From Lentzea aerocolonigenes (GTDB lineage: Bacteria > Actinomycetota > Actinomycetes > Mycobacteriales > Pseudonocardiaceae), in NCBI RefSeq assembly GCF_000974445.1, contig NZ_BBOJ01000002.1, positions 186,001-250,000 on the forward strand: a stretch of DNA of 64,000 nt, written 5' to 3'. Positions within the stretch are counted from its first letter, which is position 1. Each line of letters begins with the position of its first letter. Position numbers and translations under genes: made by a program. Shown piece by piece: positions 5,581 through 22,518 of this stretch. The notes under the pieces are model-generated. The model made no database searches. It was not told where the DNA came from and saw only the letters and a program-made list of their open reading frames with translations.

Positions 5581-6569
5581 TTCGGCGCCAGGTCGAAGGA
5601 GGCGACGTCGCCGGGACGCACCGACCCGTCCGGGATCGCACCGGCCCCGACGAGCGTGCGGAGGACCGTCTCGACCCGCGGCTCGGTCAGCTCGCCGACA
5701 GGGCCCCGGAAACCGACCGGCTTGACGTACCACTTCATCAGGTCCAGCTCGGCGCGCGCGACGGCGGCATCTTGGGTCGGCTGGTACTTCTTGAGGATCT
5801 GACCGGTCTCCTCCGGGTGCTCGACCGCGTAGTCGAGGGCGCGCAGCAGCACGGCCGTGAACCGCTGCACCAGACCGGGATCGTTCTGCGCCATCTGCTT
5901 CGACGTCACCAGCACGTTGCCGTACAGGTCGGGAACCAGATCGCCGTACGGCAGGACCACCGCCTTCCGCCCCTTGGCCGCGGCCTCGATCAACGGTGTG
6001 CCGACGACGAACTGCCCGATCCCGTCCACCTGCCCGGCCGCGAGCAGCTGCGGGAGCGACGGCGGAGGTGACGGCACGAACTGGACCTGCGCCGGGTCGA
6101 TGCCGGCGGCCTTGGCGTAGACCGGGAACATCACCTGGTTCGTGGAACCGGGCTGGTCACCGATCTTCTTGCCCACCAGGTCGGCAGGCTTGGAGATCCC
6201 GTTGCCCTCCAGGGAGACGATCGCGGCGAGCGACCGCTGGTGGATCGCCGCGACGGCGGTGACCGGCAGCTTCTCCTTGGCGACGGTGATCGCGGTGGCG
6301 GTGAAGTCGGCGATGCCGAAGTCGGCGCGGTTGCCCGCGACCAGCTTGAGCACGTCGACGCTGCCGGTGCCCGGCGTGATCGTGACCTCGATGGCCTCGG
6401 CGTCGAAGAAGCCCTTCTCCAACGCGATGTACACGTACGCGTCGCGGCCGAAGGTGCTGAACGACGTGAGATAGTTGATCTTGCTGAAGCCCGTGTTGTC
6501 CCGCGGTGGCGGTGTGCCGCAGGCGGCGACGGCGAGCACGACCAGGACAGCTGCGACGACTTTCCGCAT
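5577..6569 (-). CDS. Solute-binding lipoprotein (SsuA/NMT1-THI5-like)
   Basis: 330 residues. A lipoprotein signal with lipobox LAVAAC leads into a two-lobe periplasmic-binding fold of the NMT1/SsuA type: YVYIALEKGFFDAEAIEVTI, the GSVDVLKLVAGNRADFGIADF lobe, and DLVGKKIGDQPGSTNQV. It captures ligand outside the membrane and delivers it to the permease encoded at 4106-4855. A strong Shine-Dalgarno (GGGGAGGGGAAC) precedes the ATG. First gene of the operon. The family includes binders of sulfonates, taurine, nitrate and pyrimidine precursors, so the substrate is open; the nearby FMN monooxygenase system makes organosulfur plausible but this is inference. Confidence 0.88.
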   Translation of the reverse strand: MRKVVAAVLVVLAVAACGTPPPRDNTGFSKINYLTSFSTFGRDAYVYIALEKGFFDAEAIEVTITPGTGSVDVLKLVAGNRADFGIADFTATAITVAKEKLPVTAVAAIHQRSLAAIVSLEGNGISKPADLVGKKIGDQPGSTNQVMFPVYAKAAGIDPAQVQFVPSPPPSLPQLLAAGQVDGIGQFVVGTPLIEAAAKGRKAVVLPYGDLVPDLYGNVLVTSKQMAQNDPGLVQRFTAVLLRALDYAVEHPEETGQILKKYQPTQDAAVARAELDLMKWYVKPVGFRGPVGELTEPRVETVLRTLVGAGAIPDGSVRPGDVASFDLAPK

Positions 6570-6625
6570 TGTTCCCCTCCCCCGGAAACGTCCTTCTGGA
6601 CGAACATAGAGGCTGGGGAGGACGA

Positions 6626-6796
6626 ATGAACACGACCAATCCGCCCGTGGCCGTCAACGGCACGGGCCGATCGGAGTGTCCAGAACCGCTACCTGCGGGA
6701 GGTGCGCCTTGCGGGGTGACCTCGTGCTCTCACCGTCCGGCGAGAAGATCGTCTCACCGACGTCGGCAGTCGTCCACCGGCCCGTGCACAGGCTGA
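6626..6796 (+). CDS. Possible small Cys-containing protein (56 aa)
   Basis: An ATG at 6626 has a near-ideal Shine-Dalgarno (GGGGAGGA). It opens a 56-residue frame, MNTTNPPVAVNGTG then a Cys-, Pro- and Ser-rich stretch ending at a stop inside the following spacer. GC-rich third positions are strong for only the first 16 codons, after which another frame looks more coding-like, so this could be a frameshifted remnant. No homologue is recognised. It is divergent from the binding-protein gene. Confidence 0.22.
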   Translation: MNTTNPPVAVNGTGRSECPEPLPAGGAPCGVTSCSHRPARRSSHRRRQSSTGPCTG

Positions 6797-6800
6797 CGAA

Positions 6801-6840
6801 CACCGTGCACGACCCTGGACCTGGAGGGTTGTGCACGGTG
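6801..6840 (-). terminator. Strong hairpin terminator
   Basis: CACCGTGCACGACCCT pairs with AGGGTTGTGCACGGTG (16 bp with one G-T pair) around an 8-nt loop. It begins 15 bp past the YCII gene stop, so it should end that minus-strand transcript. No U-tract. Confidence 0.75.
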
Positions 6841-6854
6841 GACGGCGAACTGAG

Positions 6855-7229
6855 TTACTTGTTCAGGTAGGGCTCCAGGTCCTCGAACTCCGCGACCTTG
6901 CGGACCTCGACCGACATCTCCTCGACGCCGGCGAAGCAGGTGATGTACTCCTGCGCGACGGCCGTGGCCTCGGCCAGGTCCTTCGCGTTGATCAGCAGGA
7001 ACCCGCCGACGACCTCCTTGGCCTCGGCGAACGGTCCGTCGATCGCACTGATCGCCGCACCACGCCTGCGCACCACGGCGCCGGCCTTCTGCACGCCCTC
7101 GGCGCCGAGCATGACGCCGTCCGCGGTCAGCTTCTCGACGAACGCGTTCATCCGGTCGATGAGCTCGGCGTTCGGCTCCCACGAGGCCGGGTCGTCTTCG
7201 GGGACCCGGTGCATGAGCATGAACCGCAT
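6855..7229 (-). CDS. YCII-related (DGPF) domain protein
   Basis: 124 residues, a single YCII-like ferredoxin-fold domain: MRFMLMHRVPEDD at the N-terminus and the hallmark AISAIDGPFAEAKEVVGGF in the centre. The family is often encoded beside ECF sigma factors or oxidoreductases and its biochemical role is poorly defined; some members are small dehydrochlorinases or binding proteins. No sigma factor lies next to it here. A strong hairpin follows the stop. It is probably monocistronic, separated by 60 bp from the GMC oxidoreductase upstream. Confidence 0.85.
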   Translation of the reverse strand: MRFMLMHRVPEDDPASWEPNAELIDRMNAFVEKLTADGVMLGAEGVQKAGAVVRRRGAAISAIDGPFAEAKEVVGGFLLINAKDLAEATAVAQEYITCFAGVEEMSVEVRKVAEFEDLEPYLNK

Positions 7230-7289
7230 GTTCTCTCCTCGGTGTCGACTGGCAGCGTCGAACAGCTGCCACCCCTGCGTCGAACGACG

Positions 7290-8969
7290 TCACGGAGCTT
7301 TCGACATTGTGCAGACAACTTCTTCCGGACGGCGCGACACGAGGTGGCCGGCCGTCCGCAGGGCGAGCGCCGCCATCGTCAGCGACGGGTTCGACGTGCC
7401 GAGCGACGGCATGCTCCCGCAGCCCACCGCGTACAGGTTGGGGTGGTCCCAGCACCGCTGCCACCTGTCCACCACCGAGTCGCGTGGCGAGTCCCCCATC
7501 ACGTGCGTGCCACCGCCGTGGCCCGCGCCCCAGTACCGGAGCGGCTCGCCGTCGTGCTCGAAGTACCGTTCGTCGTCCGGCTTGTACGACGTGTGGTCCT
7601 CGGCGCCGAGCAGCTCGAAGATGCGGTCCGACGCCCGTTTCGCGGCCAGCAGACCGTCCTTCACGTAGTCCGACAGTCCGTAGTGGACGCTCGGCCGCGG
7701 GTTGCCCAGGGCGTCGAGGTCCGTGCCGAGCGTGACCCGGTTCGCCGGATCGGCCTCCTGCTCGATCTCGAACTGCAGCGCGAACTGCCGGCCGACCCGG
7801 TCCGCGACGGCCTGCCGCAGCGCCTTGCCGCGCAGGCCCGCCGCGACGAACTCGGCCGTGTCCGAGCCGGGACTGCCCGCCGACCAGCCCCAGCCCCAGT
7901 TGCCGATCTCGATCCGGAACGGCGCCCGCGTGCAGCGCTGCGGACCGGAGCGGAACACCTCGATGCCCGTCGTCGAGCCGGGGCCGCGGAACGGGCCGAT
8001 CTGCTGCGGCATCAACGCCCACGTCAGCAGCGCCGGGTGGTCCATCAGGTTGCGGCCCACCTGGTCGCTGCTGTTCGCGAGCCCGGACATCAGCAGCAGT
8101 TTGGCGTTCTCGATGGCGTGCGCGGCGAGGACGACGAGGTCCGCCTCTTCCTCGTGCCGCGTGTGCCTGCCGCTCGTGTCGTCCTCGTAGCGCTGGTAGG
8201 TCACTTTGGTGATGCGCCCGAACTCGTCGGCGTGCACCCGGTTCACGACGCAGCGGGTGCGCAGCTCGACGGCGGCGGACCACTGCTTCTGCGTGCGGTG
8301 CGGCGTGTACTTGGCGTTCTCCGGGCAGATCGGCACGCAGCTCGCGTAGCCCGCGCACAGCTGCCCGTGCGGCCGGTAGCCGTTCACCGGAATCCCGTTG
8401 CGCGCCTGAGGAGTTCCGACGACGAGAAGCTCGTTCCCGTCGATGCTCTGACCGTCCACGACGGACGCGATCGCCTCGTCGAGGTACGTGCGGGGCAGGG
8501 CGTGCATGGGATAGCGGTAGCCGTCCGCCACGGGAAGGTGCTGGCGCTGCTCGTCGGCGTCGGCCGCGACGCCGATCTCCCACTCCGCGGCGCGGTAGTA
8601 GGGCTCCAGCTCGTCGTAGGAGAGCGGCCAGTTGCGGCCGCGCCCGAGGTCGGCGGTGCGGAAGTCCTCGGGATGCATGCGCGGTGTGATGCCGGTCCAC
8701 GCGGTGCCGGTGCCACCGTTCATCCGCAGGTAGGGGCTGCTGTAGTCGAACGGCCCGGTGTTGATCAGGTAGTCGCTCGACGGCGCCGCGGCGGTCGTCC
8801 GGTACGGCGCGAGCGGTGTCTTGACGAGCGCGGTCCGGAACCTGCGCACCGCCTCGTCGTGGTCGTTGTGCGCTCCCGCCTCCAGCACGAGCACGCGAAA
8901 CCCGTTGTCCCCCAGCACCTTGGCGATCAGCGAGCCGGCGAACCCCGCGCCGACGACCACGGCCCTCAC
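7290..8969 (-). CDS. GMC-family FAD oxidoreductase
   Basis: 559 residues. The N-terminal Rossmann FAD motif is VVVGAGFAGSLIAKVLG. The C-terminal GMC-type signature runs GGTHVMGDSPRDSVVD, then NLYAVGCGSMPSLGTSNPSLTM, with the expected His and Asn in the active-site half. GMC enzymes oxidise alcohols or sugars; a middle Cys pair (CAGYASCVPICPENAK) resembles the Cys cluster of membrane sugar/gluconate dehydrogenase large subunits. GTG at 8969 overlaps the stop of the small gene upstream (GTGA), matching a two-subunit dehydrogenase. No cytochrome c subunit is encoded nearby, so the electron acceptor is unknown. Confidence 0.87.
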   Translation of the reverse strand: MRAVVVGAGFAGSLIAKVLGDNGFRVLVLEAGAHNDHDEAVRRFRTALVKTPLAPYRTTAAAPSSDYLINTGPFDYSSPYLRMNGGTGTAWTGITPRMHPEDFRTADLGRGRNWPLSYDELEPYYRAAEWEIGVAADADEQRQHLPVADGYRYPMHALPRTYLDEAIASVVDGQSIDGNELLVVGTPQARNGIPVNGYRPHGQLCAGYASCVPICPENAKYTPHRTQKQWSAAVELRTRCVVNRVHADEFGRITKVTYQRYEDDTSGRHTRHEEEADLVVLAAHAIENAKLLLMSGLANSSDQVGRNLMDHPALLTWALMPQQIGPFRGPGSTTGIEVFRSGPQRCTRAPFRIEIGNWGWGWSAGSPGSDTAEFVAAGLRGKALRQAVADRVGRQFALQFEIEQEADPANRVTLGTDLDALGNPRPSVHYGLSDYVKDGLLAAKRASDRIFELLGAEDHTSYKPDDERYFEHDGEPLRYWGAGHGGGTHVMGDSPRDSVVDRWQRCWDHPNLYAVGCGSMPSLGTSNPSLTMAALALRTAGHLVSRRPEEVVCTMSKAP

Positions 8970-9244
8970 GAGGTGCTTCTTCTGGGTCTGCGCTCCCAGC
9001 TGCCGAAACCGGGCGCGCGGGTGCCAGGCGCGGCCACCCCGACGGCCTTCCACGCCAGCCCTTCGGCGTAGGCGCGGGCACTCGGCACGACCCCGTGCCA
9101 CACCCCGGTGTACCAGAGCTCGATGATGTCGGCTTCCGGCGCGCCCTGCGCCAGCGCGCGGTACTGCTCGACCAGTCCGGTCGACCTCAGCTCCTCCGCC
9201 GAGAACCCGGTCAGCTCGGCGGACAACTCCACGAACGCGTCCAT
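8966..9244 (-). CDS. FAD-SLDH-like small subunit of the GMC dehydrogenase
   Basis: 92 residues starting at ATG 9244. The end of the protein, IIELWYTGVWHGVV followed by ARAYAEGLAWKAVG, matches the pattern of the small subunit of membrane sorbitol/fructose-type dehydrogenases (aWYlGvv...Y..alm). Those subunits help export or stabilise the flavin subunit, but here no Tat or Sec signal is present. Its stop overlaps the start of the GMC gene, so the two are made together. The family call rests on a short motif plus the gene order. Confidence 0.6.
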   Translation of the reverse strand: MDAFVELSAELTGFSAEELRSTGLVEQYRALAQGAPEADIIELWYTGVWHGVVPSARAYAEGLAWKAVGVAAPGTRAPGFGSWERRPRRSTS

Positions 9245-9295
9245 CGCGCCATCCTCACGGAGGCCCTGTCCTGCGCCAAACGATCTGACCAAGGC

Positions 9296-9628
9296 TCACC
9301 CGCGTGGCCCAACCGCCATTTCGCCCAGCAACGACCAGTCGTCCTGCTCCAGCACGGCGTTGACGATCCGCGGCGTCTCCTGCAGGTACGGCGGCAGCTC
9401 GGCCTGCGCGACCTTGAAGTGCGCGGACTGCACGTGCGCGGCCCCGGCGTCCCCGTCCCGGAACGCCTCGACGAGCACGTACTCGGTCTCGTCGTCGAGG
9501 CTGCGCGACCAGTCGAACCACAGGCAGCCGGGCTCGCCGCGGGTGGCCTCGGTGAAGGCGCGGGAGAGCTCGGGCCAGGTGTCGGCGTACTCGGGCAGGA
9601 CGCGGAACTTCGCGGTGATGAAGATCAA
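9296..9628 (-). CDS. Antibiotic biosynthesis monooxygenase (ABM) domain protein
   Basis: 110 residues, one ABM-type dimeric alpha/beta-barrel: LIFITAKFRVLPEYADTW, FTEATRGEPGCLWFDWSRS, VLVEAFRDGDAGAAHVQSAHF. Such proteins act as cofactor-free monooxygenases or quinol-related enzymes. The start is a TTG at 9628 because GGAGG lies 5 nt upstream; an earlier in-frame start would have no such site. It lies 51 bp upstream of the FAD-SLDH-like gene in the same direction and may share its transcript. Substrate unknown. Confidence 0.83.
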   Translation of the reverse strand: MIFITAKFRVLPEYADTWPELSRAFTEATRGEPGCLWFDWSRSLDDETEYVLVEAFRDGDAGAAHVQSAHFKVAQAELPPYLQETPRIVNAVLEQDDWSLLGEMAVGPRG

Positions 9629-9722
9629 GACGGCCTCCTTCGCGTGATCACGCCCCGAGCCTATGGGGTGAGGCGGGGTTGCGCGCCCTGCGAGGTCGCA
9701 CAACCTGCGCGATCATCCCCGA

Positions 9723-11687
9723 GTGCCCGAGATGATCGACACCCGCCGGCGCAACCTCGTCGTCGCGGCCGTCCTGCTGGCCATGCTCCTGGCCGCCCTC
9801 GACCAGACCATCGTGTCCACCGCTCTGCCGACGATGGTCGCCGACCTCGGCGGCGGCGCGCACCTGTCGTGGGTCGTCACGTCCTACCTGCTCGCCGAGA
9901 CCGTCATGACGGTCCTGATCGGCAAGTTCGGTGACCTCTACGGGCGCAAGAAGACGTTCGTGGTCAGCGTCGTCCTGTTCCTGGCCGGCTCGTTCTTCGC
10001 GGGCTGGTCGGAGTCGATGGGCACGCTCATCGCGTTCCGCGCTGTGCAGGGGCTCGGCGCGGGTGGGCTCATGGTCACCTCGACGGCGATCATCGCGGAC
10101 GTCGTGCCGCTGCGGGAACGCGGCAAGTTCCAGGGGTTCGCGGGTGCGGTGTTCGGCATCGCCACGGTGGCCGGGCCGTTGCTCGGCGGACTGTTCGTGG
10201 ACCACCTGAGCTGGCGGTGGGCGTTCTACGTGAACATCCCGCTCGGCGTCGCCGTGATCGCAGTGGCGCTGGCGGCCCTGCCCACGATCAGGACCGACGC
10301 CCACCCGAAGATCGACTACGCCGGCATCGCGCTCATCGCGCTCGCGGCCACCGGGCTGACGCTGGTCACGAGCTGGGGCGGCACCGAGTACCCGTGGACG
10401 TCGCCGACGATCCTGGGCATGGCCGCCGGGTCGGTCGTGCTGCTCGTCGCGTTCGTGTTCGTCGAGCAGCGCGCGGCCGAGCCGATGCTGCCGATGCGGT
10501 TGTTCTCGAGCCGGGTCTTCACGGTGTCGGGTGTGCTGAGCTTCGTCGTCGGGTTCGCGATGCTCGGCGGCATCACCTACCTGCCGATCTACCTCCAGTA
10601 CGTGCGCGGCGAGTCGGCGACGGCCTCCGGGCTGTGGATGCTGCCGCTGATCGCCGGACTCATGACCACGGCATTGCTCACCGGCAACGTGATCAGCCGC
10701 ACCGGCAGGTACCGGATCTTCCCGCTGGCCGGGTCCGCGGGGCTCGCACTCGGCCTCCTGCTGCTGTCCTTTTTGGACGCGACCACGAGCTACTGGGTCG
10801 TGGGCACGTTCATGGTCGTGCTGGGCGCGGGCATCGGCCTGGTCATGCAGGTGCCGGTGATCGTCGTGCAGAGCACCACGAACTACACCGACCTCGGCGT
10901 CGCCACGTCCGGCATCAGCTTCCTGCGCACCATGGGCAGCTCGTTCGGCGTCGCGCTGTTCGGCACGATCTACGCGAACCAGCTGCCGAAACACCTCCAG
11001 GGGATCGACCCGCGCGCCACCGCCAGTCCCGCCGCCGTCCACGCGCTGCCCGAGGCCGTCAAAGCGCCGATCGTGAACGGGTACGCGGAAACCGTGCAGA
11101 CGATGTTCCTCATCGCCGCCCCGATCGGCCTGGTGGCGCTGGCCGTCGCGTTCTTCCTGCCGCAGGTGCGGTTGCGCGACACGTCACGCGCCGCCGCCAC
11201 CGGCAACAGCGGTGTGGGCGAGAGCTTCGCCGCGCCGCCGTCCAGCTCCTACGACGAACTGCGCAAGCTGGTGTCCACGGTCGTCGCGAAGTCCGGCGAG
11301 GACCCGCACCTCGCCGTGCTCCGGCGGTCCGGCGTCGCGCTGCCGCTGGAACAGGCGTGGCTGCTCGGGCGGGTGTACCGGGCGTCGACGGACGACGGGG
11401 TCGCCACGCTCGACGAGATCGCCGAGATGACGGAGGTGCCCGGCGGCATCTTCGAACCGACGGCGCAGGCGCTCGTGCGGTCGGGGCACCTGACGTTCAG
11501 CGGCGACGGCTACCGGTTCACCGACGAGGGCGCGGACGTGTTCGCCCAGCTCGTCAGGGCGTGGCGGCGGTGGCTGCTCGACCAGCTCGACGACTGGCAC
11601 GAGCCGGACCAGCGCGACTTCGCGCAGGCGCTCGACTCGTTCACCGACGAGCTGATCGAGAGCGGCCGTCAGATGAGCAGGGTCTAG
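9723..11687 (+). CDS. DHA2-family MFS drug exporter with C-terminal winged-helix domain
   Basis: 654 residues. Residues 1 to about 500 are an EmrB/QacA-like 14-helix transporter: LAALDQTIVSTALPTMVADLGG (motif D1), GKFGDLYGRKKTF (motif A) and RAVQGLGAGGLMVTSTAII (helix 4, motif B-like). It should export drugs or metabolites with proton antiport. After the last helix a linker (residues about 495-515) leads to a ~140-residue soluble part with a MarR-like winged helix: TLDEIAEMTEVPGGIFEPTAQALVRSGHLT and YRFTDEGADVF. The stop overlaps the stop of the convergent AfsR-like gene by 4 bp (CTAG). Confidence 0.88.
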   Translation: MPEMIDTRRRNLVVAAVLLAMLLAALDQTIVSTALPTMVADLGGGAHLSWVVTSYLLAETVMTVLIGKFGDLYGRKKTFVVSVVLFLAGSFFAGWSESMGTLIAFRAVQGLGAGGLMVTSTAIIADVVPLRERGKFQGFAGAVFGIATVAGPLLGGLFVDHLSWRWAFYVNIPLGVAVIAVALAALPTIRTDAHPKIDYAGIALIALAATGLTLVTSWGGTEYPWTSPTILGMAAGSVVLLVAFVFVEQRAAEPMLPMRLFSSRVFTVSGVLSFVVGFAMLGGITYLPIYLQYVRGESATASGLWMLPLIAGLMTTALLTGNVISRTGRYRIFPLAGSAGLALGLLLLSFLDATTSYWVVGTFMVVLGAGIGLVMQVPVIVVQSTTNYTDLGVATSGISFLRTMGSSFGVALFGTIYANQLPKHLQGIDPRATASPAAVHALPEAVKAPIVNGYAETVQTMFLIAAPIGLVALAVAFFLPQVRLRDTSRAAATGNSGVGESFAAPPSSSYDELRKLVSTVVAKSGEDPHLAVLRRSGVALPLEQAWLLGRVYRASTDDGVATLDEIAEMTEVPGGIFEPTAQALVRSGHLTFSGDGYRFTDEGADVFAQLVRAWRRWLLDQLDDWHEPDQRDFAQALDSFTDELIESGRQMSRV

Positions 11688-14302
11688 ATCCTGGCCTCCA
11701 GGGCCGCCGCCTCCGACACACGCCCCTGCACCCGGTACAGCTCCAGAGCCCGCCCCCACTGCTCGCGCGCCAGGTCGTCCTCCCCGGCCGCCGCGTGCAC
11801 GTCGCCGAGGTGCTCCAGCACCGTGGCCTGCTCCGCCGAGTTGTCCAGCTCCCGGTAAAGCGCCAGCGCCTCGCGGTAGTGCGCGACGGCGTCAGCGTGC
11901 CGGCCGTCGTGGTGGGCGATGTGCGCGAGACTGTCCAAAGTGGCCGCCGAGCCCTCGGTGTGGCCGAGTTTGTCGTTGAGCAGCACGGCGTCCTCGCAGT
12001 ACGTCCTGGCTTCGGCGTAGCGGTTCAGGCACGCGTACCGCCAGCCCACCTCGTTCAGCGACTCGGCCTCCCGGATCTGGGCACCGGCCGCGCGGAACTT
12101 CTCCAGGCCCAGCAGCGAGTGCTCCAGCGCCTTCTCCAGATCGCCCTCGAACTCCGCGGCCCACGCGATCGCCCGGTGCGCCGCGCCGTGCGCCGCGTTG
12201 TCGCCGGTCCGCGCGAACAGCTCCAGGCTGCGGTCGAAGTGCCTGTGCCCCAACGAGGACTGGCCCAGCTCCACGTAGTCGGCGCCGAGGCACATGTGCG
12301 CGGTCGCCTGCCTGGTCTCGTCTCCCAGGGCTTCTGCCGCGCGCAACGCCATCAGCCACGCATCCACGTCGTCGGAGGTGCGCCCCCGGCGGAGGTGGTA
12401 GCTGTTCATCGTGCGGCCGAGCATCGACACGACCTCGAAGTCACCTCGCTCCAGCGCAAGCCGCTGCTCGGTCATCAGACACGCGTGCTCGGCGTCGAAC
12501 CACGCCATCACCGCAGCCCGGTCCGCGAACGACAGGACGTGGCCGCTTTCGTGCTCCGGCAGGGCTTTGTGCGGCTCCAGCGCGAGCGCCGCGGCCCGCG
12601 CGGTCGCCGCGTAGAAGTCCGCCAGCCGGGAGCCGGGGGAAGCCGGGAGGTCCGCCGCGTACAACCCGACCAGGTCGTGCATCCGGTACCGGCCGGGCAC
12701 GTGCTGCTGCACCAGGTGCGCGTTCTCCAGCTCCCGCAACACCATCCGCGTCCGCGTCACGGACCTGTCCAGCAGCGCCGCGACCGCCGCGAGCGACACG
12801 TCCGCCGTGCCGACGGTCCCGAGCAGCCCGAACGCGCGCGCCGCCTCGTCCGACAGCGCCGCGACGGACCACGAGAACACCGCGCGCAGGTTCGTGCCGA
12901 TCTCTCCCGCGTCCAGCGCGTCGAGCGGCTGTTCCCGCAGCTCCTCCGCGAACACCGCCAGCGGGAAGTCCGGTTCCATCGCGGCCCGCGCGGCGACGAT
13001 CGACAACGCCAGCGGCAGCCCACCGCACCAGCTCACCAGGTCGGCGACCACGCCGGGCTCGGCCGCCACCCGCTCCACGCCGAGCCGCGCGGCCAGGAAC
13101 TCGTGGGCATCGACAGGCAGCAGCACGTCGAGCGACACCGACCTGGCGCCGTGCGCGGCCACCAGTCCCGCCAGCTTGAGCCTGCTCGTGACGAGCACCG
13201 TCGCGGTCGGGCCCGGCAGCAGCGGCACGACCTGCTCGGTGGACCGCGCGTTGTCGAGCAGCACCAGCATCCGCTTGCCCGCGACCACGCTCCGGTACCG
13301 CGCGGCCAGCGCGTCCAGCCCGGCGGGGATCGTCCTCTCCCCCAACGCCTCCAGGAACTCCCGCAGCACGGTCTCCGGCGGCGTCGGCTCAGCCGACGGG
13401 TCGAACCCGCGCAGGTTCACGTACAGCTGACCGTCCGGGAACTCCTCGACGTGCCGGTGCGCCCAGTGCAACGCGAGAGCGGTCTTGCCGATGCCGCCCG
13501 TGCCGCCGATCGCGGTGATCACGACGGTGCCCGACGACCCCAGTGCGGCCAGTTCGTCCGAACGGCCGGTGAACCACGGGTGCGGCGCCGGCAGCTGCCG
13601 TGGCCCGCTCGGGCGCGGTTCCGCGTCTCCGGCGAGGACCCGCTGGTGGACCTCCTGCAACGGCTTGCTCGGATCCACGCCGAGCTCGTCGGCGAGCCGG
13701 CGACGCACGGAGTCGTAGTGCCGCAACGCCTCCGCGTCGTTGCCGGACAGGTGCAGCGCCAGCACCAGTTGCGCGGCAAGGCGTTCGTCGTGCGGTCGTT
13801 CGTCGGCCGCCCGCCGCAACGCGGGCAGCACCGCGGCGTGCCTGCCGTCCGCGAGCGCCACGTCGTTGCGGTCCAACTCGGCGGCCTCGCGTTCGGCGTG
13901 CAGGCTCTCCCGCAGCGCGTCGAACCACGGCGACTCGAGCCCGTCCAGCGCCTGCCCGCGCCACAACGCGAGTGCCGCGTCGAAATCGCCTTCCCGCACC
14001 AATGCCCGGAATCGGAACAAGTCGACCCGAGACGACTCCACGGTCAGCCGATAACCGGCGGGAGAACGTTCGATGTCCACCCCGAGAACCTTGCGAAGCT
14101 TCGACACGTATCCGTACAGCGTCTCGCGCGCTCTCAGCGGCGCCCGGTCGCCCCACACGCGGTCGAGCAGCCGGTCGACCGGTACCGGCCTCCCCTCCTC
14201 CACCAGCAGTGCGACCAGCACGGACCGTTGCCGGACGTGGCCGATCTCGACCACCTCACCCCGGTCTCGCACCTCGACGGCACCGAGCAGCCCGAACTCC
14301 AC
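11684..14302 (-). CDS. AfsR/SARP-type transcriptional regulator with NB-ARC and TPR domains
   Basis: 872 residues. An OmpR-like winged helix (about 1-90, EFGLLGAVEVRDRG, then YGYVSKLRKVLG) is followed by a BTAD activation domain (about 95-240), an NB-ARC STAND ATPase with P-loop GGTGGIGKTAL and Walker B MLVLLDN, and C-terminal TPR-like repeats (GQSSLGHRHFDRSLELF, ADAVAHYREALALYREL). AfsR-like proteins switch on secondary metabolism or development. GTG at 14302 is chosen because GAGGGG lies 6 nt upstream; an ATG at 14335 is also in frame. It faces a small secreted protein gene 128 bp away, a likely target. Confidence 0.9.
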   Translation of the reverse strand: MEFGLLGAVEVRDRGEVVEIGHVRQRSVLVALLVEEGRPVPVDRLLDRVWGDRAPLRARETLYGYVSKLRKVLGVDIERSPAGYRLTVESSRVDLFRFRALVREGDFDAALALWRGQALDGLESPWFDALRESLHAEREAAELDRNDVALADGRHAAVLPALRRAADERPHDERLAAQLVLALHLSGNDAEALRHYDSVRRRLADELGVDPSKPLQEVHQRVLAGDAEPRPSGPRQLPAPHPWFTGRSDELAALGSSGTVVITAIGGTGGIGKTALALHWAHRHVEEFPDGQLYVNLRGFDPSAEPTPPETVLREFLEALGERTIPAGLDALAARYRSVVAGKRMLVLLDNARSTEQVVPLLPGPTATVLVTSRLKLAGLVAAHGARSVSLDVLLPVDAHEFLAARLGVERVAAEPGVVADLVSWCGGLPLALSIVAARAAMEPDFPLAVFAEELREQPLDALDAGEIGTNLRAVFSWSVAALSDEAARAFGLLGTVGTADVSLAAVAALLDRSVTRTRMVLRELENAHLVQQHVPGRYRMHDLVGLYAADLPASPGSRLADFYAATARAAALALEPHKALPEHESGHVLSFADRAAVMAWFDAEHACLMTEQRLALERGDFEVVSMLGRTMNSYHLRRGRTSDDVDAWLMALRAAEALGDETRQATAHMCLGADYVELGQSSLGHRHFDRSLELFARTGDNAAHGAAHRAIAWAAEFEGDLEKALEHSLLGLEKFRAAGAQIREAESLNEVGWRYACLNRYAEARTYCEDAVLLNDKLGHTEGSAATLDSLAHIAHHDGRHADAVAHYREALALYRELDNSAEQATVLEHLGDVHAAAGEDDLAREQWGRALELYRVQGRVSEAAALEARI

Positions 14303-16076: not shown

Positions 16077-16367
16077 TCAGACCACGTCGACGGTCACCTC
16101 GACGACGTCTCCCGGCCCCACGTCGTTCTTCTTGCGCACAGCGGCCTTGATCGGCAGCACGTAGCAGCCGGACTGCTTGTCCGGAAACACCGACGTCGAC
16201 CACGACGAGGCGCCGAGCCCTGCGCGGACCTTCACGGAACCGAAGCCGGCGCCGGGCGTGGCGAGTTCCCTGATCTGTTCGGAAACGTCCTCCGGCAGCG
16301 TCACGAAAGTCCACGTGTCCATGCGCCGGGCGTCCCAGAGCCACAATTCCGCGTCGAAGACGAACAT
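16077..16367 (-). CDS. DUF1905 domain protein
   Basis: 96 residues from ATG 16367. The single domain matches DUF1905: FDAELWLWDARRMDTWTFVTLP, then FGSVKVRAGLGASSWSTSVFP, GCYVLPIKAAVRKKN and GDVVEVTVDV. These are small beta-barrel proteins of unknown function, often fused to YdeI-like domains. Its promoter faces the iron-transport operon; a CATAAT -10-like box lies a few bases ahead of the start, so the message may be leaderless. The stop is 11 bp from the EEP gene stop, convergent. Confidence 0.82.
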   Translation of the reverse strand: MFVFDAELWLWDARRMDTWTFVTLPEDVSEQIRELATPGAGFGSVKVRAGLGASSWSTSVFPDKQSGCYVLPIKAAVRKKNDVGPGDVVEVTVDVV

Positions 16368-16443
16368 GCTCACATTATGGGGCCAAACAGGTGATGTGTC
16401 CGTCGTCGCATCACGTAATGGCATCCACGTCTTGAATGCGACC

Positions 16444-16462
16444 TTAGGTTAGCTTTACCTTG
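16444..16462 (+). promoter_or_regulatory. DtxR/IdeR-type iron box
   Basis: TTAGGTTAGCTTTACCTTG matches the actinobacterial iron box TTAGGTTAGSCTAACCTAA at about 15 of 19 positions, with a perfect left half. It lies 45 bp upstream of the binding-protein start, where Fe2+-loaded IdeR/DmdR would block transcription when iron is plentiful. The consensus is established knowledge; binding here is inference. Confidence 0.8.
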
Positions 16463-16506
16463 TCGACGCCCGTTCTGACCTGGGGGTGAGTCGAGGAGGA
16501 CCGCTG

Positions 16507-17517
16507 GTGAGGCGTCGTGCACGCACCGTGATGGTGGTGGCCGCGCTGTTGGCGTCGACGTTGTCGGCCTGCAGTTCCGCGAACGACCTGGTCATTTATT
16601 CGGGCCGCAACGAACAATTGGTCGGCGCCCTCCTCGACCAGCTGGAAGCCGCCGTCGGAATCGACGTCCAGGTGCGGTACGGCGGCAGCGGTGAAATGGC
16701 CGCGCAGCTGCTGGAAGAAGGCCAGGGAACCGAGGCCGACCTGTTCTTCTCGCAGGACGCCGGTGCGCTCGGCGCCGTCGGCGCGCAGGGCAGGCTGGCG
16801 GAGCTGCCCGCGGACGTGCTCGGCATGGTGCCGGAGAACTACCGGGCGCGCGACAAGCGGTGGGTGGCCACGAGCGCACGTGCTCGCGTCATCGCCTACG
16901 ACCCCCGCGTGCTGCAGGAGACCGAGCTGCCCCAGACGGTCGACGAGGTCGTCGACCCGAAGTGGAAGGGCAAGATCGGGTACGCGCCGACCAACGGGTC
17001 GTGGCAGGCGTTCGTGACGTCGGTCCGGGTGCTCAAGGGCGAGGAGTTCGCCAAGGACTGGCTGAAGAAGTTCGCCGCCAACGAGCCCAAGCGGTTCGAC
17101 AACAACAACAGCATCCTCAAGGCCGTCGACGACGGTCAGCTCCCCTTTGGACTGATCAACCACTACTACTGGTACGCCATGGTCGCGGAGAAGGGCGGCG
17201 AGGCGAACGTCAAGGCCAGGCTGCACCGCGTCGGCAACGGTGACCCGCTCGCGCTGGTCAACGTGGCGGGCGTCGGGATCGTCCAGGGCAGCAACCAGAG
17301 CGAGGCCGCGCAGAAGGCCGTCCGGTTCCTGCTGTCCGAGCAGGCGCAACGGCACTTCGCCGACGTGACCGCCGAGTACCCGGCCAACCCCGGGGTGAAG
17401 CCCGGCAAGCACCAGCTGCCGCCGATCACGGACCTGCACGCCCCCGACATCGACCTCTCCAAGCTCTCGTCCCTGCAGGAGACGGTGAAGCTGTTGCAGG
17501 AAGCGGGGTTGTCCTGA
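16507..17517 (+). CDS. Fe(III) ABC transporter substrate-binding lipoprotein (FbpA/FutA-like)
   Basis: 336 residues. The lipobox LSAC follows a short membrane segment. The mature protein begins DLVIYSGRNEQLVGALLDQ, the standard opening of class I ferric-ion binding proteins, and has SQDAGALGAVGAQGRL, WVATSARARVIAYDP and GLINHYYWYAM (a Tyr cluster of the kind that binds ferric iron). GTG 16507 is chosen for the GAGGAGGA 6 nt upstream. It captures Fe3+ outside the membrane. First gene of a four-gene coupled operon behind an iron box. Confidence 0.92.
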   Translation: MRRRARTVMVVAALLASTLSACSSANDLVIYSGRNEQLVGALLDQLEAAVGIDVQVRYGGSGEMAAQLLEEGQGTEADLFFSQDAGALGAVGAQGRLAELPADVLGMVPENYRARDKRWVATSARARVIAYDPRVLQETELPQTVDEVVDPKWKGKIGYAPTNGSWQAFVTSVRVLKGEEFAKDWLKKFAANEPKRFDNNNSILKAVDDGQLPFGLINHYYWYAMVAEKGGEANVKARLHRVGNGDPLALVNVAGVGIVQGSNQSEAAQKAVRFLLSEQAQRHFADVTAEYPANPGVKPGKHQLPPITDLHAPDIDLSKLSSLQETVKLLQEAGLS

Positions 17518-19034
17518 GGCCCGCCCACCGGGCCGCCCCTGCACTCACCACGCTCTCCCTCCTCGTCGCCGCGGCGGCCGTGCTGCCGCTGGCGTACCTG
17601 GCCGTGCGCTCGTTCGAACGCGGCGGAGGGGTCGTGTGGGACGTGCTCGCGCGGACCCGGACCGCGGAACTGGCGCTGCGGAGCCTGTCGCTCGCGGTGG
17701 CGGTGACGGCCTCGTGCCTCGTCCTCGGCGTGCTCGGCGCGTGGCTCGTCGTGCGTTCGGATCTGATGGGGCGCAGGGCTTTCGGCGTGCTGCTGGTGCT
17801 GCCGCTCGCGGTGCCGTCGTACGTCGCCGGGTTCACCTGGATCTCCGTGGTGCCGGACCTCACCGGGTTCGCGGGCGCGTTCGTGGTGCTGACGCTGGTG
17901 TCGTACCCGTACGTGCTGCTGCCGGTGGCGGCCGCGTTGCGCACGGCCGACCCGGCGGTGGAGGAGGTCGCGCGGTCACTCGGGCGGACCAGCCGTCAGG
18001 TGTTCTTCTCCTTGACGCTGCGGCAGATCCGCCCCGCGGCGCTCGCGGGCGGGCTGCTGGTGGCGCTGTACGTGCTGAGCGACTTCGGCGCGGTGTCGCT
18101 CATGCGGTACGAGGCGTTCACGCTCGGCATCTACACGAGCTACCGGGCGTCGTTCGACCGCACCCCGGCGGCGGTTCTCGGACTGGTGCTGGTGGTGCTG
18201 GCGATCGCGTTGACCGTCGGTGAACGCAAGGCACGCGGTGTGGTGGCGCACCGCGGCCGACGGCAGCCGTCGACCGTGCCGCTCGGACGGGCGCGAGTAC
18301 CGGCGTTGGCGGGAACGGTCGTGCTGGTCCTGCTGACGCTCGGCGTGCCGGTGGTCAGTCTCGTGTGGTGGCTGGTCGCGGGCACTTCGACGTTCTCCGT
18401 CGCGGACCTCCTCGCCACCACCGGGAACACGGTCGCGGTGTCGGCGTTCGGCGCGCTGCTGACACTCGTTCTGGCGTTGCCCGTGGGAATCCTGGCCGCG
18501 CGGCACCAGGGCCGGCTCGTACGAGGGGTCGAGCTGGCCGGGTTCGCGGGGCACGCGCTGCCGGGCATCACCGTCGGACTCGCGCTGGTGTTCTTCGGCA
18601 TCCGGTTCGCCCCGCCGCTGTACCAGACGACACCGATGCTGGCGTTCGCGTACGCGGTGCTGTTCCTGCCGCTGGCCATCGGGGCGGTGCGCACAGGTGT
18701 GGCGCACGCGCCGCCCGTGCTGGAGGACGTCTCCCGGTCGCTCGGCGTCGGGCGCTGGGAGACGGGCCGGCGGGTGACGGTGCCGCTGGCCGCGCCGGGG
18801 ATCCTGGCCGGGACCGCGCTCGTGTTCCTGACCTGTGCCAAGGAGTTGCCGGCGACGTTGCTGCTGCGACCGACCGGGATGGACACCCTGGCGACCGAGC
18901 TGTGGACGCGCACGGAGATCGGCGCCTATGCCGCGGCGGCGCCGTATGCGGCGGTTCTGCTTGTGGTGGCAGCGATTCCGGCGGTGGTGCTGGACCGGTT
19001 CCTGCGCCGAACAATTCAGGGAGGTGAGCGGTGA
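17514..19034 (+). CDS. Fe(III) ABC transporter permease (FbpB-like, two-domain)
   Basis: About 506 residues with two copies of the binding-protein-dependent permease domain. EAA-type loops are seen at VEEVARSLGRTSRQVFFSL and LEDVSRSLGVGRWETGRRV. The first ATG/GTG/TTG start in frame is GTG 17580, but that removes the first half of membrane helix 1 (PALTTLSLLVAAAAVLPLA). A CTG at 17514 overlaps the binding-protein stop (CTGA) and restores the helix, so a rare CTG start with coupling is favoured; 17580 is the conservative choice. It forms the membrane channel for ferric iron. Confidence 0.88.
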   Translation: MRPAHRAAPALTTLSLLVAAAAVLPLAYLAVRSFERGGGVVWDVLARTRTAELALRSLSLAVAVTASCLVLGVLGAWLVVRSDLMGRRAFGVLLVLPLAVPSYVAGFTWISVVPDLTGFAGAFVVLTLVSYPYVLLPVAAALRTADPAVEEVARSLGRTSRQVFFSLTLRQIRPAALAGGLLVALYVLSDFGAVSLMRYEAFTLGIYTSYRASFDRTPAAVLGLVLVVLAIALTVGERKARGVVAHRGRRQPSTVPLGRARVPALAGTVVLVLLTLGVPVVSLVWWLVAGTSTFSVADLLATTGNTVAVSAFGALLTLVLALPVGILAARHQGRLVRGVELAGFAGHALPGITVGLALVFFGIRFAPPLYQTTPMLAFAYAVLFLPLAIGAVRTGVAHAPPVLEDVSRSLGVGRWETGRRVTVPLAAPGILAGTALVFLTCAKELPATLLLRPTGMDTLATELWTRTEIGAYAAAAPYAAVLLVVAAIPAVVLDRFLRRTIQGGER

Positions 19035-20032
19035 GCGGCTTGACCGTGAAGCGACTGGTCGCGGGCTACGGCGGGGATCCCGTGCTGCGCGAGGTCGATT
19101 TCGAGGTGCCGGAAGGCGGTCTGCTCGCCGTGCTCGGGCCCTCCGGGTGCGGCAAGACGACGTTGCTGCGCGTCCTGGCGGGCTTTCACCCCGTGTCGTC
19201 GGGCGAGGTGTGGCTGGGTGGGAGGCAGCTGACGTCCGCCGTGCCGCCCGAGCAGCGCGGGATCGGGATCGTGCCGCAGGAAGGCGCGTTGTTCCCGCAC
19301 CTGACCGTGGCGGGCAACGTCGGGTTCGGACTCCGGCGAGGTGACCGCGGCGCACGGGTCGAGGAACTGCTCGACCTGGTCGGACTCGCGGGCTTCGGTG
19401 CGCGCATGCCCGCCGAGCTGTCCGGCGGCCAGGCACAACGGGTCGCGCTGGCACGCGCGTTGGCACCACGACCGGGAGTCGTGCTGCTCGACGAACCGTT
19501 CTCCGCGCTGGACGCCGGACTGCGCGAGGAGCTCCGGGCCGACGTGCGCGCGACGCTGAAGGCGGCCGGCGCGACGGCGTTGCTCGTGACGCACGACCAG
19601 GAAGAAGCGCTGGGGATCGCCGACCACGTGGTGGTGCTGCGCGACGGTGCCGTGGCGCAGTTCGCGAGGCCGCAGACCATCTACACCTCCCCCGCAGACC
19701 TCGGCGTGGCGCTGTTCGTGGGCGAAGCGGTGACGTTCCAGGGCGTCGCCCGCTCCGGCCTGGTCGCCACACCGCTCGGCGAGCTGCGGACGTCCGGCGA
19801 CGGACCCGGAACCGTGCTGGTGCGCCCGGAACAGCTGATCCTCGGCACCGGCGGAGTCATGTCCACTGTGGACGACGTGCGGTTCCACGGCCACGACGCG
19901 ACGGTACTGCTGCGCCTCGCCGACGGCACGCGGGTCCGGTCCCGCGTCCAGGGACGGGTTCCGGTGCGCGCAGGGGACTCGGTCGCGGTGTCGGTCGACG
20001 GTCCGGCGTTGTTCTTCGGAGACACACCGTGA
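19031..20032 (+). CDS. Fe(III) ABC transporter ATP-binding protein (FbpC-like)
   Basis: 333 residues. Walker A GPSGCGKTT, Q-loop VPQEGALFP, signature LSGGQAQR, Walker B VVLLDEPFSALD and switch LLVTHDQEEAL are intact. The C-terminal ~110 residues form a TOBE-like beta domain, usual for ferric-type ATPases. GTG 19031 overlaps the permease stop and its own stop overlaps the next start (GTGA at 20029-20032), so it is translationally coupled on both sides. It energises iron import. Confidence 0.92.
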   Translation: MSGLTVKRLVAGYGGDPVLREVDFEVPEGGLLAVLGPSGCGKTTLLRVLAGFHPVSSGEVWLGGRQLTSAVPPEQRGIGIVPQEGALFPHLTVAGNVGFGLRRGDRGARVEELLDLVGLAGFGARMPAELSGGQAQRVALARALAPRPGVVLLDEPFSALDAGLREELRADVRATLKAAGATALLVTHDQEEALGIADHVVVLRDGAVAQFARPQTIYTSPADLGVALFVGEAVTFQGVARSGLVATPLGELRTSGDGPGTVLVRPEQLILGTGGVMSTVDDVRFHGHDATVLLRLADGTRVRSRVQGRVPVRAGDSVAVSVDGPALFFGDTP

Positions 20033-22518
20033 CGGCGACCGCGGACCTCGGGTTCGCCGACGACCTCGCCGTGCACGGAAACCGGCTCGCCCTCGTGACC
20101 GAAGACGGCTCCCTCACCTACGAGGAACTGGACCAGCGCGTGGCGGCGGCGTGCGAACGGCTCGGCACGACGCGCCGGCTCGTGCTGCTCGCCGCGGAGA
20201 ACGACGTCGACTCGATCGTGGCGTACCTGGCGGCGTTGCGCGGCCGGCACCCGGTGGTGCTCGCGGCGGCGGGGCAGGTTCCGGCGCTCGTGTCGGCGTA
20301 CGACCCGGATGTGGTGGTCTCGGGCTCGTGGGAGGACCGGCGCCGCGGCACGGCGTACGACTCGGACGCGAGGGCCACCGGCACCTGGACCGAGCAGCAC
20401 CACGGCACCGTCCACGACTCCCACGCGAGAACCACCGGCACCTGGACCGAACGACACCACGGCACCGTTCACGACCTGCACCCCGAACTCGCCCTTCTGC
20501 TCTCGACCTCCGGCACCACCGGATCACCCAAGCTCGTCCGGCTCAGCCTCGACAGCCTCACCGCGAACGCCGCCGCGATCGCCACCTACCTGGACATCCG
20601 GCCGTCCGACCGCGCCATCACCTCGTTGCCGCTGCACTACTGCTACGGCCTGTCCGTCGTGAACAGCAACCTCGCGCGTGGAGCCGGCCTGGTGCTGACC
20701 GGCCGTTCGGTGATCGAGCCGGAGTTCTGGGACCTCGTGCGTTCCCACGGCGTGACGAGCCTGCACGGCGTGCCGCACACGTTCGGGCTCCTCGACGGCA
20801 TCGGGTTCGCCGGCATGGACGTGCCGTCGCTGCGGTACGTGACGCAAGCCGGTGGGCGGCTGGCCCCTGCGGACGTCGCGCGGTACGCGGCACTGGGCGA
20901 AGAACGCGGCTGGCAGTTCTTCGTCATGTACGGCCAAACCGAGGCCACCGCACGCATGGCCTACCTGCCGCCGCAACTCGCAGCGACCCACCCGTCCGCG
21001 ATCGGGGTCGCGATCCCCGGCGGCGAGCTGCTGCTGGACGACGGTGAGCTGGTCTTCCGCGGCCCCAACGTCATGCTCGGCTACGCGCACTCCCCCGCGG
21101 ACCTGGCGCTCGGCCGCACGACGTTCGAGCTGCGGACCGGAGACCTCGGCTCGGTCGACGGCGGCGTGTACTCGGTGACCGGCCGCAAGAACCGGTTCGT
21201 GAAGCCGTTCGGGCTGCGCGTCGACCTCGACCAGATCGAACGATCACTGCTGGCGGACGGCCTCCGCATGGCCTGCACGGGCGACGACGACGGCCTGGTC
21301 GTCGCGGTGCTCGGCCCGGCCGACCGCGCGGTGCGGCTGATCCGCGCCCTCACCGATCTTCCCGCGTCCGCCGTCCGCGCCTACTCGGTGACGTCGATTC
21401 CGTTGCTGTCCAACGGGAAAATCGACTACAAGGCCGTCGCCGCGCCTCAGGATCCCGAGTCGGCGTCGGTGCGCGAGGTGTTCGCGACGGTGCTCGGTGT
21501 GCGGTCGGTGCCGTCCGACGCGACGTTCAACTCGCTGGGCGGCGACTCCCTGCGCTACGTGCAGATGACCGTGCGACTGCAACGGTTGCTGGGCGACCTG
21601 CCCCGCGACTGGCCGACGACGCCGGTGTCGTCGCTGGAAGAGCTCCGCGGCAGGCGCGGCCGGTTGCCGATGATCGACACCACGATCGTGCTGCGGGCGT
21701 TGTCGATCCTGCTGATCGTCGGCTCACACGTCGGGTTCTTCAAGCTGCTCGGCGGCGCGCACCTGCTGCTCGTGGTGGCGGGCTGGAACTTCGCCCGCTT
21801 CCTGCTGCCCGCCGACCCGCTGCGGATCCTGCGTGCCACGGCCTTCATCGCCGTGCCGACGTCGCTCTGGCTCGTCTACCGGGCCGCGGTCACCGACGAC
21901 GTCACGCTCGACAACGTGTTGCTGGTCAACAACTTCACGAGGGTCGGCGCCGCCGGCTACTGGTTCGCCGAGGTGCTCGTCCACTTCCTCCTGTTGTGCG
22001 CCCTGATCTTCGTGATCCCGGCGTTCCGGCGCTGGGAACAACGGCACGGCTACGCGTTCGCACTGGCGTTGCTCGGCGTGACGCTGGCACTGAGGTTCAC
22101 CGTCGAAGGCGACTTCTTCGTGCGCAACATGACCACGCTCGGCGCGGCGTGGTTCATCGCGCTGGGCTGGCTCGCCCAGCGCAGTGCCGTGAGCCACGCC
22201 GCGCTGTGGCAGAAGTGCCTCGTCGTGGTGGTCGTGGTCGCGATGGTCCCCGGCCGCATGGAGGACCTCTCCCGCGAGATCGTCGTGATAACGGGCCTGA
22301 TCCTGCTGCTGTCGCTGTCCCGCCTGCCGGTGCCGCGCGCCCTGCTCACCCCGCTCAGCCTGCTCGCCAGCGCCTCACTCGCCATCTACCTGACGCACTA
22401 CGCCGTCTTCCCGCACCTCCAACCGGAAGTGCCGGCGGCGATCGTCTGGGTGGTGTGCATCGCGGTGGGCTGTGCGGTGTGGAGCGGGATCACCAGGGTG
22501 GTCAGAGCGGCGCGCTGA
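20029..22518 (+). CDS. Adenylation-carrier-acyltransferase-3 fusion protein, iron-operon encoded
   Basis: 829 residues. Residues 1 to about 475 are an ANL adenylation domain: LLSTSGTTGSPKLVRL (A3), VMYGQTEATARM (A5), ELRTGDLG (A7), GRKNRFVKPFGLRVDLDQIE (A8), LSNGKIDYKAV with the A10 Lys. Residues about 480-540 are a carrier domain with the phosphopantetheine Ser in FNSLGGDSLRYVQ. From about 548 the protein is membrane-embedded and begins VLRALSILLIVGSHVGFF, the opening of acyltransferase-3 proteins with the key His. It should activate an acid, load it on its own carrier and pass it through a membrane acyltransferase. No condensation or thioesterase domain. Substrate unknown. Its GTG overlaps the iron ATPase stop. 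The C-terminus overlaps a convergent gene by 17 bp. Confidence 0.85.
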   Translation: MTATADLGFADDLAVHGNRLALVTEDGSLTYEELDQRVAAACERLGTTRRLVLLAAENDVDSIVAYLAALRGRHPVVLAAAGQVPALVSAYDPDVVVSGSWEDRRRGTAYDSDARATGTWTEQHHGTVHDSHARTTGTWTERHHGTVHDLHPELALLLSTSGTTGSPKLVRLSLDSLTANAAAIATYLDIRPSDRAITSLPLHYCYGLSVVNSNLARGAGLVLTGRSVIEPEFWDLVRSHGVTSLHGVPHTFGLLDGIGFAGMDVPSLRYVTQAGGRLAPADVARYAALGEERGWQFFVMYGQTEATARMAYLPPQLAATHPSAIGVAIPGGELLLDDGELVFRGPNVMLGYAHSPADLALGRTTFELRTGDLGSVDGGVYSVTGRKNRFVKPFGLRVDLDQIERSLLADGLRMACTGDDDGLVVAVLGPADRAVRLIRALTDLPASAVRAYSVTSIPLLSNGKIDYKAVAAPQDPESASVREVFATVLGVRSVPSDATFNSLGGDSLRYVQMTVRLQRLLGDLPRDWPTTPVSSLEELRGRRGRLPMIDTTIVLRALSILLIVGSHVGFFKLLGGAHLLLVVAGWNFARFLLPADPLRILRATAFIAVPTSLWLVYRAAVTDDVTLDNVLLVNNFTRVGAAGYWFAEVLVHFLLLCALIFVIPAFRRWEQRHGYAFALALLGVTLALRFTVEGDFFVRNMTTLGAAWFIALGWLAQRSAVSHAALWQKCLVVVVVVAMVPGRMEDLSREIVVITGLILLLSLSRLPVPRALLTPLSLLASASLAIYLTHYAVFPHLQPEVPAAIVWVVCIAVGCAVWSGITRVVRAAR
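20341..20484 (+). repeat. In-frame 57-bp tandem repeat inside the adenylation domain
   Basis: Copies begin at 20341, 20398 and 20455 (last one partial), 57 bp = 19 codons each. They encode HHGTVHDSHARTTGTWTER and close variants. The block lies between the N-terminal subdomain and the A3 phosphate loop, where ordinary adenylation domains have only a short link. Confidence 0.88.

Follow-up and report, generated by a model that had tools for sequence, protein, structure and literature searches.

To our knowledge, it is an open question how Gram-positive bacteria equipped with an FbpABC transporter acquire ferric iron, which is poorly soluble. An operon of Lentzea aerocolonigenes that bears on it is located within a 64,000-nucleotide stretch of contig NZ_BBOJ01000002.1 (positions 186,001 to 250,000; hereafter the window, meaning the whole stretch). 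On the forward strand, an iron box is followed by genes coding for an FbpA-type lipoprotein, a permease, an ATPase and an 829-residue protein in which adenylation, carrier and acyltransferase-3 (AT3) domains are fused. This gene order, proposed in a first-pass annotation of the window, is borne out by a motif scan, Pfam matches and relatives in the Protein Data Bank (PDB). Comparison with related loci indicates that the fusion is a widely spread, patchily distributed (14/396 genomes) and iron-box-associated enzyme paired with FbpABC, and the explanation which we favour for the whole, with slightly better than even confidence, is an iron-starvation acyl-transfer system of Actinomycetota feeding FbpABC. 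As the enzyme appears to share an operator with the importer across many actinobacterial families and is a single protein to purify, the question becomes directly testable.

The iron box (a DtxR/IdeR/DmdR-type operator) reads TTAGGTTAGCTTTACCTTG and matches 15/19 positions of the DtxR consensus TTAGGTTAG(G/C)CTAACCTAA, which was used for scoring as printed in a passage of PMC1382209. The next best site across the 64-kb window matches 12/19 positions, and 20 first-order shuffles of the window peak at 12-13. The likely lipoprotein start codon lies 45 bases downstream of the last base of the box. Seven sites with at most three mismatches occur in the host genome, compared with none for a reversed control pattern, and a DtxR-type repressor is matched at C52:91561 (79.7 bits), along with weaker matches. 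A chance occurrence of the box was considered and is ruled out by the window shuffles together with the promoter comparison across 79 loci presented below.

Judged by family, the transporter is a ferric importer. The best PDB relatives of the lipoprotein are iron-utilization and HitA/FbpA proteins (7w3w, E 6e-70), and NCBIfam models for 2-aminoethylphosphonate score far below their cut-offs on this binding protein. The tandem tyrosines of its NHYYW motif, which we take to be iron ligands, are both kept in 51 of the 52 aligned linked relatives, the remaining row being gapped. FbpA relatives of known structure bind bare ferric ion with small anions.

A search for the same fusion beside FbpABC genes in other actinobacteria, as the first-pass annotation had suggested, did recover such loci. 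The named sample comprises the best 80 of at least 569 matches and, being chosen in this way, leans to close relatives. Seventy-nine loci were usable, L140 being left out as the gene caller, a simple codon-score script which supplied both gene calls and starts, did not return the fusion; loci L039-L094, some of which derive from the same genomes as named loci, were not added to the 79. An FbpA-like gene is present in 52/79 loci. In 51 of these the fusion directly adjoins an ABC gene, and in the other locus it stands two genes from one. Relative to the fusion, the ABC genes are upstream and co-directional (26), upstream on the opposite strand (18), downstream and co-directional (4) or downstream on the opposite strand (4), and the five arrangement and linkage labels need 21 changes on a fusion tree built by a quick method, which suggests that the partners have repeatedly changed arrangement while staying together. 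Identity of the FbpA partners to the FbpA of a Lentzea locus (L095) spans 31-94%, and fusion and FbpA distances are correlated across the 52 loci (Mantel r 0.63; 0/2000 permutations). Furthermore, in an independent phylum draw of 396 genomes, 14 encode the fusion, that of the window included. Five of the 13 other loci are linked to FbpABC, and an FbpA-like match (E<=1e-30), counted in a draw with the same genome handles, occurs in 12/14 fusion genomes versus 112/382 others (Fisher p 3e-5). Other gene clusters, those of the fusion and ABC genes aside, each occur in at most 19 of 136 loci. An accidental juxtaposition in one genus is ruled out by the recurrence in the 79 loci and the phylum draw.

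The operator recurs along with the genes. When the 250 bases adjoining the fusion gene, the FbpA gene or the gene that opens their run were scanned, a box of at least 14/19 was found in 59/79 loci, compared with 1/1102 control windows. The control windows were likewise upstream windows from these loci, chosen so as not to overlap any of those tested; a first control scan, which included neighbours with a shared intergenic region, gave 27/1030 at >=13. By class, 43/52 linked and 16/27 unlinked loci carry such a box. In ten Arthrobacter-type loci without local FbpABC (L105, L106, L107, L110, L112, L128, L147, L154, L160 and L173), the called fusion start lies 28-33 bases downstream of the first base of the box, and in the phylum draw a box >=14 is located at the fusion or its operon in 8/12 loci with an intact start. 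An FbpA-like protein is encoded elsewhere in the genome for 24/27 unlinked loci (18/18 plus 6/9). Several of the 27 (L115, L119, L126 and L146) lie on short contigs. A box >=14 occurs near this distant gene in 21/27 (17/18 plus 4/9), here in stretches of ~460-700 bases, whereas the 1102-window control covers 250-base windows. The first-pass annotation had held that a fusion scattered without iron genes would speak against its proposal. Such scatter is mostly not what was observed: 27/79 loci do lack a local FbpA, and most of these are boxed or have FbpA elsewhere, as counted above. Taken together, these comparisons strongly support iron control and a functional tie to FbpABC, and suggest that the control is repression by iron.

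Some loci show other neighbours. In a Pseudonocardiaceae group (L081, L082, L083, L085 and L086), the neighbour of the fusion is not FbpABC but a gene for a small, conserved membrane protein of ~270-290 amino acids. This gene precedes the fusion, overlapping it or closely spaced, and the highest-scoring box of each locus is located away from the fusion. The best box of L085 (14) is located just before an EfeU/FTR1-like permease gene, identified by eye, two genes from the fusion. In L077, which has no local FbpA, an NRAMP-like gene (by eye) is divergent at a distance of 60 bases and a box of 14 is located at the fusion start.

The presence of adenylation, carrier and AT3 domains in one chain, as first annotated, is confirmed by the domain search. 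PF00501 and PF00550 are matched with 129.8 and 28.4 bits, respectively, and PF01757 with 23.6-28.3 bits on the window copy, below the Pfam cut-off of 31; the AT3 assignment is supported by relatives, with PF01757 being matched at E<=0.001 in 24/24 full-length members and 37/40 C-terminal pieces. No condensation or thioesterase domain was found in the fusion by the Pfam scan (E<=0.001), in agreement with the earlier statement that it is not an ordinary siderophore non-ribosomal peptide synthetase (NRPS). Residues Lys464, Ser507, Arg556, His567, His578, Arg590 and His790 are invariant in 80/80 aligned fusions. The predicted model of the fusion has a mean predicted local distance difference test score (pLDDT) of 89, and its adenylation-carrier (A-T) part resembles LgrA and EntE-EntB (3rg2). 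When modelled alone, the AT3 part (pLDDT 93) forms ten long helices, the first of which contains Arg556 and His567 in 80/80 fusions. We take these two residues to be the equivalent of the catalytic pair of OafA; the review passages checked for this pair did not show it. A fold search with the AT3 model gave one match among viral models (E 3e-4).

Which acid the enzyme activates can be approached through its pocket. With the 275-residue adenylation core as query, the nearest solved structures are VinN (3wvn) and the oxalate-, feruloyl/fatty-acyl-, o-succinylbenzoate- and malonyl-CoA ligases. According to passages of PMC11253843, K330 and R331 of VinN, both in the beta13-beta14 loop, correspond to GrsA positions 330/331, and the amino group is bound by D230. 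In the printed alignment, Arg309 of the fusion is located at VinN R331 and Cys205 at VinN D230; Arg309 is present in 80/80 fusions, 78 of which have Cys and two Ser at position 205. The amino-binding Asp (GrsA 235) is lost both under this alignment and under that to LgrA. Its loss, along with the placement of Arg309, points to an acid that carries a further anionic group and lacks an amino group at this site, and as such the substrate is likely to be a non-amino dicarboxylic acid, with a hydroxy-dicarboxylate being a guess prompted by the iron context. As no other cluster is shared by more than 19/136 loci, the acid and its acceptor are each expected to be a common metabolite or part of the envelope.

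This substrate assignment has to be weighed against several results which do not favour it. With a full-length query or profile, NRPS amino-acid modules (LgrA) are the best among solved relatives, and feruloyl/fatty-acyl-CoA ligases score equal to oxalate-CoA ligase for the adenylation core. The LgrA alignment places Gly207 (Gly in 80/80), not Cys205, at the amino-binding Asp, and the same Arg as Arg309 is found in a paralogue consisting of an adenylation domain only, so that Arg309 may not fix the acid. This paralogue, from L009 (G000:C55:519000-538900, 6001-12866), is 457 amino acids long, 44% identical and without carrier or AT3 domains. By eye, its neighbours include LuxE-like, LuxC-like, LpxA-like, FabG-like and ceramidase-like genes, and adenylation-only matches of this kind are common in the family search.

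Comparison with known systems sets the fusion apart from each of them. The first-pass annotation had likened it to the Dlt system made as one protein. Of this likeness to Dlt (DltA, DltC, DltB and DltD), the order of steps stands, that is adenylation, loading of a carrier and transfer at the membrane. The rest does not, as the fusion is one chain under iron-box control, its membrane part is of the AT3 rather than the MBOAT type (only PF01757 was matched and no DltB-type MBOAT was found) and the amino-binding Asp is absent. No DltD-like gene was found among the flanking genes scanned. Membership of the Dlt system is ruled out by the two tested features, namely the lack of an MBOAT domain and of the amino-binding Asp. 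The epsilon-poly-lysine synthetase Pls likewise combines an A-T didomain and membrane helices in one chain. However, Pls has ~1300 residues, six helices and three soluble tandem domains, whereas the fusion has ~830 residues, ten AT3-type helices, no such tandem domains and no Asp for an amino acid. VinN and the dicarboxylate-CoA ligases (for oxalate, malonate and o-succinylbenzoate) are near to the adenylation core and share with it an arginine, Arg309 lying at VinN Arg331, but VinN keeps Asp230 where the fusion has Cys205, and its loop is one residue shorter. We know of no VinN-type or dicarboxylate-CoA ligase fused to an AT3 domain.

Siderophore synthetases of the NRPS and NRPS-independent (NIS) types resemble the fusion in the EntE-EntB-like (3rg2) A-T didomain, the iron-box control and the adjoining importer. 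In contrast to these, the fusion lacks condensation, cyclization, thioesterase and NIS domains in the Pfam scan, and, unlike siderophore NRPS genes, it is without recurring companion biosynthetic genes (none in more than 19/136 loci). AT3 enzymes of the OafA, ExoH and OpgC type share the ten predicted helices, the Arg/His of the first helix and the PF01757 match. The fusion differs from described AT3 enzymes in having its own adenylation and carrier domains as donor supply, while passages of PMC9558356 give the SGNH domain as the most common fusion partner of described AT3 proteins. Among the matches listed in the openly licensed literature, none describes the fusion, how it is regulated or how it is tied to FbpABC.

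A mechanism may be built on the operator motif, the FbpABC linkage, the domain order and the intact catalytic residues, all of which hold up in comparison among relatives. When iron falls, a DtxR-family repressor would leave the box, permitting FbpABC and the fusion to be made. The adenylation domain would activate an acid of common metabolism, probably a non-amino dicarboxylic or hydroxy-dicarboxylic one, which would be loaded as a thioester on the phosphopantetheine of the fusion's own carrier at Ser507. Through Arg556 and His567, the AT3 domain may then take the acyl group from the fused carrier instead of from acyl-CoA and pass it to an acceptor that lies within the membrane or at its outer face, for which a glycolipid, a polymer of the wall or a small molecule that is exported are candidates. 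The resulting carboxylate or hydroxy-carboxylate ester would bind Fe(III) near the lipoprotein FbpA, from which it would reach the permease and ATPase. As described in passages of PMC9558356, AT3 enzymes acylate extracytoplasmic acceptors, and several of these enzymes add succinyl. Of the two readings offered by the first-pass annotation, the acylation of a surface polymer or lipid and the finishing of a chelator made elsewhere, acylation of a surface acceptor appears to be the better. More specifically, and tentatively enough that we think it rather doubtful in this exact form, an alpha-hydroxy-carboxylate ester (malyl- or citryl-like) on an envelope lipid or polymer could serve as an immobilised weak ferric ligand which passes Fe(III) to FbpA.

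Several observations weigh against an acyl-transfer system that feeds FbpABC. No box >=13 was found in 13/79 named loci (L111, L115, L126, L131, L136, L142, L146, L158, L159, L168, L169, L171 and L174). Contig ends truncate two of these (L126 and L146), and the set includes Nocardia (3/3), four Mycobacterium-type loci and Actinomycetospora; in the three boxless Nocardia, an FbpA gene elsewhere in the genome has a box of 14. No FbpA-like match was found for the unlinked loci L126, L165 and L171, the contig of L126 ending in an ATPase gene which adjoins the fusion, nor, at E<=1e-30, in 2/14 fusion genomes of the phylum draw. No solved structure was matched at E<=0.001 in a fold search with the AT3 domain, and the donors of described AT3 enzymes are held, in passages of PMC9558356, to be acyl-CoA rather than acyl carrier protein.

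The acceptor could instead be a small hydroxylated metabolite, esterified by the AT3 domain to yield a diffusible ferrophore whose ferric complex FbpABC would import, which we regard as rather improbable. AT3 enzymes can acylate small exported products, for instance macrolides (passages of PMC9558356). Siderophore genes are typically co-regulated with an importer, and the fact that no other cluster occurs in more than 19/136 loci leaves no recurring sugar or lipid pathway. The same count, however, reveals no dedicated exporter recurring beside the fusion, and the binding of bare ferric ion with small anions by FbpA relatives also argues against the import of such a complex. A more distant prospect, to which we give distinctly less credence, is that during iron starvation the fusion acts in iron sparing or envelope remodelling, with a product that does not itself bind iron and a tie to FbpABC through shared regulation only. 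This would accommodate the 27/79 loci in which the fusion stands apart from FbpABC, 16/27 of which are still boxed. Adjacency nevertheless recurs in four arrangements, with FbpA partners whose identity to that of L095 falls as low as ~31%, and no other cluster accompanies the fusion in more than 19/136 loci; shared regulation alone would not favour FbpABC in this manner.

The remaining alternative, and one we consider highly improbable, is the second reading of the first-pass annotation, in which the fusion finishes a siderophore whose pathway is encoded elsewhere. An NIS synthetase match is present in 12/32 fusion genomes, and the system thus occurs both with and without such synthetases. The other 20/32 have no match, only 2/14 phylum-draw genomes have one, and no neighbour recurs in more than 19/136 loci, NRPS siderophores lying outside this survey. 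The finishing of an NIS siderophore is hence unsupported.

Feeding of FbpABC by acyl transfer to a surface acceptor would have several consequences. An AT3 domain supplied by a fused carrier would depart from the acyl-CoA model set out in passages of PMC9558356, and genome miners would gain a marker for an iron system which siderophore rules may not look for. We consider it possible, at low confidence, that the fusion is the first AT3 enzyme to bring along a donor bound to its own carrier, and that actinobacteria use it to acquire iron in a new way. The case for iron coupling, made from sequence comparison, is strong; the substrate, acceptor and chemistry are inferred.

Coordinates of the operon and of the fusion protein's features are collected in the table below.

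Features of the iron-box operon and of the encoded fusion (positions within the window)
Feature	Position	Strand	Basis or remark
Iron box (DtxR/IdeR/DmdR-type operator)	16444..16462	.	15/19 to consensus
FbpA-type ferric-binding lipoprotein	16507..17517	+	Open reading frame (ORF) listed from 16486; PDB relatives, Pfam
Two-part permease	17514..19034	+	Pfam; putative CTG start; listed ORF begins at GTG 17580
ABC ATPase with TOBE_2 domain	19031..20032	+	Pfam
829-residue adenylation-carrier-AT3 fusion	20029..22518	+	Pfam, predicted model
Adenylation domain	20059..21444	+	Residues ~11-472; Pfam 11-352 plus C-terminal subdomain to ~472
57-bp tandem repeat, 2.3 copies	20346..20475	+	Expands low-confidence loop of adenylation domain
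Cys205 codon	20641..20643	+	Alignment
Arg309 codon	20953..20955	+	Alignment
Carrier domain	21469..21594	+	Residues 481-522
Ser507 codon	21547..21549	+	Phosphopantetheine site
AT3 membrane acyltransferase domain	21679..22512	+	Pfam residues 554-819
His567 codon	21727..21729	+	

The lipoprotein start is probably at 16507 rather than at the listed 16486, because an AGGAGG sits 7 bases ahead of the former. Four-base overlaps at all gene joints, as first annotated, are seen at the ATPase and fusion starts (GTGA at 19031 and 20029), and at the permease joint only if translation begins at a CTG, which would overlap the upstream stop codon by four bases (CTGA, 17514-17517). Such a start is suggested by the position of the first ATG, GTG or TTG codon of the permease, the GTG at 17580, which reads as lying inside the first membrane helix. 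The same CTGA after a GGAA stretch was observed in 18/25 rows compared, these 18 being from Lentzea and Saccharothrix-like genomes (one genome twice). As this CTG is made up of the end of the upstream Ser codon and the stop, coding constraint may explain part of its conservation. No Rfam match at gathering scores was found in the 64-kb window for an RNA element.

Among the matches listed, the closest fusion is that of Lentzea rhizosphaerae (P0001; 94%). The 57-bp repeat is shorter by one unit in P0001 and P0002, the nearest relatives, and is absent from the 23 relatives of alignment A1. A DUF1905 gene (16077-16424) is divergent from the operon, placing the iron box also in its upstream region. 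In the Arthrobacter locus L105, a protein of the DUF1905 cluster is likewise encoded divergently from the fusion, with the box between them.

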